This document shows positions 4,074-5,925 of a DNA stretch of 26,476 bases, one piece after another (the stretch's first letter is position 1; every line of letters begins with the position of its first letter). The position numbers and the translations under genes were made by a program. The DNA is from a virus, in IMG/VR virus record IMGVR_UViG_3300024348_002002, positions 1 through 26,476 of that record, one strand, 5' to 3'. Below the pieces are notes generated by a model. The model saw only the letters and a list, made by a program, of their open reading frames with translations, was not told the DNA's origin and did no database searches.

Positions 4074-4304
4074 ATGAAAATGTATCCAGAACTTTCAGAT
4101 CTCCAAAAATTTACAGTCGAAGAGTTTCAAGTAGATTTTGATAATCTAATACAAAGAGTAGAAAATGGCGAATCATTTATTATTACTGACGGAGGAAGAA
4201 ACGCAGTGATAGTTCCATATAACGAAACCATAAAGTTTGCAGTAGAATCTAAAGTAGATGACGACATGATACGAATACATACTGATCACGAAGAAGGTAG
4301 TTGA
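4074..4304 (+). CDS. Phd/YefM-like antitoxin protein without a toxin partner
   Basis: A 76-residue protein whose middle reads FTVEEFQVDFDNLIQRVENGESFIITDGGRNAVIVPYNE when pieced together (about residues 13-50). This is the Phd/YefM antitoxin pattern: a helix, a xxVENGExxIIT strand turn and a conserved xxAVIVP strand. Phd proteins bind DNA through this half and neutralise Doc/YoeB-type toxins through the C-terminus. Here the C-terminus is short and acidic. No toxin gene lies next to it. It may antagonise a host toxin or act as a small repressor; the next promoter starts inside its last codons. ATG 4074 is chosen because the longer frame would begin inside tRNA-Pro; ATG 4080 is an alternative. 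Confidence 0.65.
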   Translation: MKMYPELSDLQKFTVEEFQVDFDNLIQRVENGESFIITDGGRNAVIVPYNETIKFAVESKVDDDMIRIHTDHEEGS

Positions 4305-4329
4305 CAGAGAGTTCCAGATCCTCTATAAT
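4301..4329 (+). promoter_or_regulatory. Consensus sigma70 promoter for the tRNA triplet
   Basis: TTGACA (4301-4306) and TATAAT (4324-4329) are both perfect and are spaced 17 bases apart. Transcription should begin near 4336, 8 bases before the first tRNA. The -35 box overlaps the stop codon of the antitoxin-like gene. Confidence 0.88.
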
Positions 4330-4594: not shown

Positions 4595-4623
4595 TTGACT
4601 TCTTCAAGTCAAACCCTTATAAT
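4595..4623 (+). promoter_or_regulatory. Early promoter with an inverted repeat over its -35
   Basis: TTGACT (4595-4600) and TATAAT (4618-4623) have 17-base spacing. The -35 sits in the left arm of a perfect 7-bp inverted repeat (TTGACTT 4595-4601, AAGTCAA 4606-4612). The repeat could be a repressor site or simply a spacer hairpin. It drives the genes at 4646 and 4858. Confidence 0.78.
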
Positions 4624-4645: not shown

Positions 4646-4861
4646 ATGACTCTTAATTCAAAATTCAAGAAAGACGTTCAAACTCTTCGTGGTGCAGCAA
4701 ACGGCGATTTCTATCTTGATGTAAAGAATCCAAAACTTTACAAAAAGGTTCGTCGTTTCTATGAAAACGAAGGTGTAGTGTTCTCTGGTGATCCTCTTGA
4801 TGATTATGAGATGCTTATGGAATATGTTCTTGCTGATCTTGAATCCGTTGAGGTTGCATGA
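4646..4861 (+). CDS. Small early protein, unknown function
   Basis: A 71-residue soluble protein with a basic N-terminal half (KFKKDVQTLR, KLYKKVRRFYENEG) and an acidic C-terminal half (DPLDDYEMLMEYVLADLESVE). This charge split resembles small phage proteins that bind host factors, but no family is recognised. ATG 4646 is the first in-frame ATG downstream of the promoter at 4595-4623. The in-frame TTG at 4595 is the promoter's own -35 box and is ruled out. It overlaps the next gene by 4 bases (ATGA). Confidence 0.75.
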   Translation: MTLNSKFKKDVQTLRGAANGDFYLDVKNPKLYKKVRRFYENEGVVFSGDPLDDYEMLMEYVLADLESVEVA

Positions 4862-5097
4862 AATCAAAAGTTCTTCTTGAACGTGAAGGATATCGCTTTG
4901 TAGAGGCGGGTATTCTAGAAATCAACGGTAAACCTGATTACCGTCTCCAAAAGCAAAATGAATACACTAAACGCTGGAATGACATTTATCTTTTTGATAA
5001 TGTTCTACAATGTTCTACTGCAATGGAGGATATTGAATATGCGCGTTGGCTTGACCCAGACAGAGTACCTTGCTACATTAAGGATGATGAAGAGTGA
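4858..5097 (+). CDS. Small early protein, unknown function
   Basis: A 79-residue soluble protein, translationally coupled to the upstream gene by an ATGA overlap. It is rich in Tyr, Trp and acidic residues (KRWNDIYLFDNV, EDIEYARWLDPDRVPCYI) and ends in an acidic tail (KDDEE). No membrane segment or recognisable motif. Its last codons form the left arm of the hairpin controlling the next gene, so ribosomes finishing here could also disturb that hairpin. Confidence 0.72.
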   Translation: MKSKVLLEREGYRFVEAGILEINGKPDYRLQKQNEYTKRWNDIYLFDNVLQCSTAMEDIEYARWLDPDRVPCYIKDDEE

Positions 5098-5134
5098 GAT
5101 ATAGATAAATAATATAAAATAGTCTATATCTTAT
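5094..5134 (+). promoter_or_regulatory. Hairpin hiding the HNH2 start codon, with a late promoter in its loop
   Basis: GATATAG (5098-5104) and CTATATC (5124-5130) pair perfectly. A-T and G-T pairs extend the stem to 5094-5104/5124-5134, taking in the first two bases of the ATG. The loop contains ATAAATA. Transcripts from upstream would fold. Transcripts from the late promoter would lack the left arm. This is the same layout as at 257-306, although the sequences are unrelated. Confidence 0.65.
5104..5111 (+). promoter_or_regulatory. Late promoter (GATAAATA) for HNH2
   Basis: It matches the NATAAATA late element. The predicted start is near 5117, about 16 bases before the ATG. It lies at the base of the hairpin loop described at 5094-5134. 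Confidence 0.62.
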
Positions 5135-5519
5135 GTATAAAAACCAAGCAGATGCCAATGCCAAAGCAAGAGAACTTTATAGAAAAAATACTAAAAAGTA
5201 CTCATTAAAAAATAAAGAAAAAAGAGAAAATCGCAGAAAATTAATTTATGAAGCACTTGGAAATAAGTGTGTTGAATGTGGATCTACTTCAAATTTAGAA
5301 ATAGATCACATAAATCCTTCTCTAAAAGAAAATAGAATTTCTCCATTGGCACAAGGATTATCAAAAACATTAGATGATGATAATCTTCAACTGTTATGTC
5401 ATTTTTGTCATACTAAAAAATCAAAATATCAAAGAAATGCTGCTTGGAATTTATTCAGGAGTTTGCCTCTTGAAGAGCAAAATAAACTAATACAAAAAGA
5501 GAAAGAGAAGGATGAGTAA
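5133..5519 (+). CDS. Small free-standing HNH endonuclease
   Basis: A 128-residue protein. A strongly basic, helical N-terminus (about residues 1-45, many Lys/Arg) precedes a compact HNH domain: CVECG (46-50), LEIDHINP (55-62) and LCHFCHTKKS. The two CxxC pairs form the zinc site, and DH is the catalytic pair. It lacks the extra zinc finger and helix-turn-helix of the first HNH protein, so the two are different lineages. No good Shine-Dalgarno precedes the ATG. Its leader is instead folded into a hairpin unless transcription starts at the late promoter. It is probably a homing endonuclease inserted between small genes. Confidence 0.82.
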   Translation: MYKNQADANAKARELYRKNTKKYSLKNKEKRENRRKLIYEALGNKCVECGSTSNLEIDHINPSLKENRISPLAQGLSKTLDDDNLQLLCHFCHTKKSKYQRNAAWNLFRSLPLEEQNKLIQKEKEKDE

Positions 5520-5567
5520 ATAGTCACGGATGGACTTTAACAGCACTGGTCGGGAGCAAAACCCCTT

Positions 5568-5801
5568 ATGTCTAGATCTGATCTGCTTCGTTGGATTGGA
5601 AACATTCTTCTCATAATCGGTTACCAAACCATGTTATGGGGAGAATTTAAATATGGTTTAATGATAAAAGTTGTTGGGGGATTGCTCACAGTACCTTTTG
5701 CCATTAAACTTAAACTTTGGGATGTATTATTCTTATGTGCATTCTTTGGTATTACCGAGATATCAAAGTTAACCCAACTTTTCTTAGTTTCTCAAAACTA
5801 A
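5568..5801 (+). CDS. Small multi-span membrane protein
   Basis: A 77-residue, very hydrophobic protein with about three short membrane segments (LLRWIGNILLIIGYQTML, YGLMIKVVGGLLTVPFAI, DVLFLCAFFGITEI) and few charges. It is an inner-membrane protein of unknown function. The pattern is reminiscent of fragments of small transporter or YgjV-like proteins, but no motif confirms this. The 48 bases upstream contain no strong Shine-Dalgarno. It lies between the HNH2 gene and a repeat-hairpin region that leads to a terminator. Confidence 0.65.
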   Translation: MSRSDLLRWIGNILLIIGYQTMLWGEFKYGLMIKVVGGLLTVPFAIKLKLWDVLFLCAFFGITEISKLTQLFLVSQN

Positions 5802-5925
5802 GTGGTGGATCCAATGACCCCCTTATGAGTTTCTTGCTTCTCTCAAGAGCAAGTGGTGCGGATGGGGAATTCTTTCTCCGCCTGGTTTCTTGCCTCCAGT
5901 CAAAGGGCAAGTGGCGAGCCTGAGT
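5800..5925 (+). repeat. Three AAGTGGYG repeats with associated hairpins
   Basis: AAGTGGTG at 5800 and 5851 and AAGTGGCG at 5909 recur at 51- and 58-base spacing. The last two each follow a hairpin ending in GCAAG: CTTGCT/AGCAAG (5833-5838/5848-5853) and CTTGCC/GGCAAG (5889-5894/5906-5911). A further stem GCGGA/TCCGC (5858-5862/5877-5881) lies between them. No gene is apparent in this stretch before the terminator. Confidence 0.5.

Follow-up and report, generated by a model that had tools for sequence, protein, structure and literature searches.

A hairpin enclosing the late promoter of a mobile HNH endonuclease gene on a cyanophage-related contig is a probable late-only lock, and such repeats are enriched before cyanophage endonuclease genes

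Introduction

In phage T4 and in the Aeromonas phage Aeh1, the endonuclease genes I-TevI, I-TevII, I-TevIII, segB and mobE have leaders in which a structure formed in early RNA sequesters the start region and an internal late promoter relieves the block, a mode of control that the relevant passages of PMC2988022 and PMC3014915 treat as established or proposed, and as implicated in the case of segB. In cyanophages, the T4 late promoter has its counterpart in the motif NATAAATA (PMC2984593). Here we describe an HNH endonuclease gene, HNH2, in a 26.5-kb viral contig, called the window below; its nearest named relatives here are Synechococcus myoviruses such as S-SM2 and S-SRM01. By its anatomy, HNH2 would work like the I-Tev, segB and mobE leaders, and since those passages show the principle to be published for T4 and Aeh1 endonucleases (PMC2988022; PMC3014915), it is not a new design. 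We consider it likely that the HNH2 hairpin serves this mobile endonuclease gene as an inbuilt lock that permits late expression only.

Results

HNH2 follows two genes of unknown function, with a tRNA cluster about 560 nt upstream, and its start codon lies at the end of a hairpin:

4646-4861, + strand, gene of phrog_552, function unknown, upstream of HNH2 (PHROG E 4.9e-26)
4858-5097, + strand, gene of phrog_481, function unknown; its stop codon is the HNH2 cassette site (PHROG E 1.1e-40)
5094-5106, + strand, left arm of the hairpin (RNAfold)
5104-5111, + strand, late promoter GATAAATA (cyanophage NATAAATA; from the sequence, with the motif of PMC2984593)
5107-5121, + strand, hairpin loop of 15 nt (RNAfold)
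5122-5134, + strand, right arm of the hairpin, over the AT of the start codon (RNAfold)
5133-5519, + strand, HNH2, a 128-aa HNH endonuclease with predicted cleavage activity (Pfam HNH PF01844, E 1.6e-9; PHROG HNH, E 1.5e-14)

The original prediction had described the pair GATATAG/CTATATC, found at 5098-5104 and 5124-5130, as the core of an 11-pair helix with two G-U pairs; this helix is formed by 5094-5104 with 5124-5134, and RNAfold adds A5105-U5123 and U5106-G5122, giving a stem of 13 pairs, three of them G-U. Since the right arm ends at 5134 and the ATG occupies 5133-5135, the A and T of the start codon are covered, as had been claimed. Two further points needed correction: the late promoter lies in the loop only in part, its first three bases belonging to the left arm, and the overlap of the left arm with the upstream gene exists but extends over the TGA stop (5095-5097) and a single base of the last sense codon, its third, rather than over several codons.

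The hairpin has a folding energy of -12.0 kcal/mol, whereas shuffles average -3.4 (z -4.6). It was more stable than any of 200 shuffles, and the fold was retained in a 161-nt context. A separate helix score was likewise equaled by none of 200 dinucleotide shuffles of the flanks (p 0.005). A chance palindrome in AT-rich DNA, for which the AT-rich arms and the three G-U pairs could speak, is in the face of both shuffle tests extremely improbable, the more so as the hairpin is kept in relatives and agrees with the class-wide enrichment described below. An intrinsic terminator was considered and rejected for this hairpin, which has an AU-rich stem and a 15-nt loop, is followed by the ATG and received no call in the terminator scan. 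Rfam 15 gave no match over the gathering score at 5094-5134; its matches in the window are tRNAs and a wcaG RNA only, the latter at 5825-5925 (RF01761, 97.7 bits) ahead of a nucleotide-sugar epimerase gene. After the HNH2 site, a conserved non-coding element at 5521-5570 (AGTCACGGATGGACT...ACTGGTCGGGAGCAAAACCCC) ends at the next start codon; it has no Rfam match, and four of ten sequences carry double changes at one pair of its short stem.

Two putative early promoters lie upstream of HNH2:

4301-4329, + strand, sigma70-type early promoter TTGACA-17-TATAAT (12 of 12 consensus positions; a consensus match only)
4595-4623, + strand, sigma70-type early promoter TTGACT-17-TATAAT, from which transcription of the operon is expected to run into HNH2 (11 of 12 consensus positions; a consensus match only)

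The terminator scan found no terminator-like site between these promoters and HNH2, nor any before 5863, and early RNA from the two promoters should read through into HNH2. Spacing as in T4 late promoters puts the predicted late transcription start of HNH2 near 5117, and RNA starting there would be without the left arm. We modelled the energy needed to open positions -12 to +3 of the start codon, which for HNH2 was 11.7 kcal/mol in the read-through RNA and 4.65 in the late RNA.

From this layout we infer read-through, a late start site, translational repression and late timing of HNH2. Early RNA polymerase coming from 4301 or 4595 would traverse the two upstream genes into HNH2, and the resulting RNA, having both arms, would fold and bury the start codon, so that little nuclease should be made. 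After the late sigma switch, transcription would proceed from GATAAATA with a start at about 5117 inside the loop; as this RNA would have no left arm, the start region should be freer and HNH2 translated. Several observations count against such a lock. In the model, the late RNA remains mostly base-paired in the region of the start codon. The right arm and leader of HNH2 (AAATAGTCTATATCTTATG) have no visible Shine-Dalgarno sequence, unlike the right arm of HNH1, the other HNH gene of the window. The left arm would also be occupied by ribosomes that finish translating the upstream gene at 5097, and this could open the hairpin.

Comparison with relatives showed where the hairpin belongs. In the empty site of L254, GATGATGATGAG is directly followed by TAAATAGTCACGG, whereas in the window the end of the upstream gene is followed by the hairpin, HNH2 and then TAAATAGTCACGG; S-SRM01 provided a second empty-site comparison. 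Among the close relatives of the upstream gene, 77 of 80 have neither HNH2 nor a late promoter at this site. The inserted unit is:

5095-5519, + strand, cassette of hairpin, late promoter and HNH2 ORF, its ends placed within a few bases (from the empty sites of L254 and S-SRM01)

Because the insert runs, within a few bases, from the base of the left arm to the HNH2 stop, the hairpin is part of the mobile unit rather than of the host operon. At the level of sequence, these comparisons show that hairpin, promoter and ORF make up a single cassette, with the upstream gene's stop codon as its insertion site, and the proposed lock would be part of this cassette and travel with it.

HNH2 was found on five contigs with 94-98% protein identity, and all five keep the promoter and nearly all pairs. 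Their left arms are identical except for changes in the stop codon and at the base of the stem. In L005 the stop codon differs in such a way that a G-U pair becomes A-U. The stem has a single A.C mismatch in L002 and L003 and lacks its base in L006, changes that weaken the fold to about -8.8 kcal/mol and count against the lock. The absence of any compensatory change among the HNH2 family leaders (97% identical) also counts against it, and the pairing is for this reason conserved rather than proven by covariation. A profile search for distant HNH2 relatives returned the same five close copies only, so the family cannot supply covariation.

The window holds a second leader of the same kind:

257-306, + strand, HNH1 leader, with arms 257-270 and 293-306, TATAAATA at 276-283, and GGAGG and the GTG start in the right arm
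305-859, + strand, HNH1 endonuclease (PHROG HNH, E 3e-28)

As originally claimed, nothing is common to the HNH2 arms and those of HNH1, and the description of the two nucleases as different lineages is roughly right, their alignment covering the HNH core only (32% over 69 aa, E 2e-7). The HNH1 leader arms are nearly invariant among relatives, with one compensatory inner pair in L024. The HNH1 copy of L017 (1635-1724) has neither the left arm nor the upstream tRNA-like gene, and a sigma70-type promoter (TTGACA...TATGAT) stands directly before its late promoter; judged from its sequence, this copy might be a natural hairpin-less variant that is expressed early.

Several tRNA-related features adjoin HNH1 and its relatives. 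A tRNA-Asn-like gene lies at 183-256, just before HNH1, with the T-arm loop GGCAGTA; ARAGORN did not call it, and its T-arm stem varies in a paired manner among relatives (GTAGG/CCTAC, CTAGG/CCTAG). A tRNA-Phe call by ARAGORN at 808-897, without Rfam support, overlaps the HNH1 3' end and may be spurious or a tRNA disrupted by insertion. In L067 (9014-9072) and L068, a tRNA gene precedes a distant HNH1 relative (36%), whose leader has ATATAAATA between the arms ATCGAACC and GGTTCGAT; the similarity of the arm to the tRNA T-arm sequence GGTTCGA could hint at an operator that is like the homing site, as the I-TevI operator resembles the I-TevI homing site. In L111 (DSL-LC03, about 40,800), an HNH gene with the same kind of leader begins right after a tRNA half ending near the anticodon loop, a layout that looks as if a cassette or intron interrupts the tRNA gene.

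We then scanned 1.6 Mb of cyanophage DNA in 14 records, which contain only 490 NATAAATA sites; 487 were scanned, and 352 of these lie 8-75 nt before an ORF start. A strong repeat was defined as a helix enclosing the promoter with a stacking energy of -15 or better. An upstream limit of 45 nt misses the outer repeats of a terminator-containing class, and the counts given here are those of the wider scan. Endonuclease labels came from Pfam matches and from similarity to ORFs labelled in this way, with checks against Pfam and PHROG; because the Pfam search for GIY-YIG is insensitive in cyanophages, sequence clusters were used as well. The labels of clusters 25, 55 and 90 were checked after the scores were known, and results were also computed without them. 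As a positive control, the same scan of T4 ranked 42 promoter sites, with gene e in second and segB in fourth place, and the threshold is conservative, since I-TevI scores lower (-12.0).

Strong repeats enclosed NATAAATA before 34 of 56 HNH, GIY-YIG or endonuclease VII genes (shuffle expectation 2.6) compared to 18 of 296 other genes (expectation 12.8; Fisher p ~1e-19). Enclosing repeats at ordinary late promoters are thus near chance, and the claim of a repeatedly selected design, a general rule for free-standing endonucleases, is supported against the possibility that such repeats are as common before ordinary late genes. The difference widened at a threshold of -19 (23/56 versus 2/296) and was also seen when protein families at 40% identity were counted by their median member (11 of 19 endonuclease families, 12 of 186 others), with at least one case in 13 of the 19. 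Strict Pfam labels alone gave 16/28, named isolates only 14/27, and the set without the HNH1 family and the window 25/46. Around 40% of the scanned endonuclease promoters are without a strong repeat and some endonuclease genes are without any NATAAATA; the other two scanned NATAAATA genes of the window (1233 and 24935) have no such repeat. An enclosed late promoter is apparently a general rule before cyanophage endonuclease genes. Modelled opening energies followed the same division, with means of 10.9 (read-through) and 3.0 kcal/mol (late) for 32 strong-repeat endonuclease leaders versus 4.9 and 3.7 for 282 ordinary late leaders (p 1e-13).

The arms of the 34 endonuclease leaders fall into 23 groups without a common 7-mer, a sequence pattern consistent with repeated origins, or with rapid turnover while selection maintains pairing. 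This bears on the alternative that the repeat acts as DNA, as an operator where binding of the nuclease, or of some other protein, would block the late promoter. I-TevI does bind an operator overlapping its own late promoter (a passage of PMC2988022), and the late promoters here are bracketed by the repeat. However, arms that are wholly different between related endonucleases and yet paired are better fitted by selection for pairing, and several stems contain internal G-U, which pairs in RNA but is a mismatch in a DNA palindrome; we therefore consider the operator unlikely and prefer a hairpin acting in RNA.

The enclosing repeats come in two architectures. In the first, at 20 promoter sites including HNH1 and HNH2, the right arm covers or adjoins the start codon (median distance -1 nt). 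That it mostly ends there argues against a hairpin that hardly affects access to the start codon and mainly tunes RNA stability or processing, for example by shielding or tagging the 5' region; RNase processing also acts on T4 endonuclease messages, according to a passage of PMC2988022, but the late transcript would have none of the structure, and stability alone, which does not explain this arrangement, strikes us as a quite improbable role compared with control of the start codon. In the second architecture, at 14 endonuclease sites, an outer repeat encloses a hairpin resembling an intrinsic terminator, with the late promoter immediately after it; the median distance from the end of the right arm to the start codon is 9 nt. 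The sites, each with an outer 10-15 bp repeat, a terminator-like hairpin and then TATAAATA, are:

W02 (S-SRM01): 18021, 51314, 56026, 62477, 192486
G004: 13832, 22921, 25528, 29328
G005: 22165; G006: 20220
G007: 2916, 29539, 38547

This architecture was present in none of the 296 other genes (p 1e-12) and occurs only in S-SRM01 and four viral contigs; terminators just upstream of the promoter are enriched in themselves. A block to read-through transcription and a block to the translation of read-through RNA would have a common purpose.

Discussion

On balance, we lean towards a general late-only leader lock on free-standing cyanophage endonucleases of the HNH, GIY-YIG and endonuclease VII types, rebuilt many times with unrelated arms and in two architectures. 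A search of the open-access literature gave no report of a hairpin-enclosed late promoter at cyanophage homing endonucleases, and none of the T4-type leaders in the relevant passages of PMC2988022 and PMC3014915 has the nested terminator architecture. The cyanophage-wide enrichment and the nested terminator form may be the new parts. If the lock is real, cyanophage mobile endonucleases carry their own late-phase safety device and could insert into early operons without premature production of a DNA-cutting enzyme. Scattered T4 examples would then become a testable rule, and a late promoter inside an inverted repeat would be a simple signature for mobile endonuclease genes annotated as hypothetical.

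Among the described systems, T4 segB is, like HNH2, a free-standing endonuclease gene whose late promoter falls within the left arm of a hairpin and whose start codon is covered by the right arm. It stands directly after a tRNA gene in a tRNA cluster, with arms AGAACATAAATA and TATTTATGTTCT and a 17-nt loop; in contrast to HNH2, it is a GIY-YIG gene of a coliphage, carries AGGAG in the loop upstream of the start and has no sequence relation. Aeh1 mobE shares with HNH2 an HNH free-standing endonuclease, an RNA hairpin that occludes the start and a late promoter (a passage of PMC2988022), but lies between ribonucleotide reductase genes and has been tested experimentally (experiments cited in a passage of PMC3014915). 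According to the passages of PMC2988022 on I-TevI, I-TevII and I-TevIII, the ribosome binding site is concealed in the folded read-through RNA of the early or middle phase, and late RNA is without the 5' strand, as proposed for HNH2; these genes differ in being intron-encoded and in hiding a consensus Shine-Dalgarno sequence, and I-TevI also autorepresses. In the early RNA of T4 gene e (lysozyme) and soc, a hairpin is likewise described that lies at the start of translation and inhibits it, and for gene e late promoters supply RNA without the 5' strand of the hairpin (passages of PMC3014915), although both are ordinary phage genes and not mobile endonucleases.

Compared to the I-TevI, segB and mobE leader class, HNH2 has the homing-type endonuclease, the hairpin at the start codon and the placement of the late promoter, with a predicted start site; the consensus Shine-Dalgarno sequence that the three I-Tev genes are described as hiding in the stem is absent, and the start codon region alone is hidden. 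As a passage of PMC3014915 counts a sequestered Shine-Dalgarno sequence and/or AUG, this absence is not decisive for the wider class.
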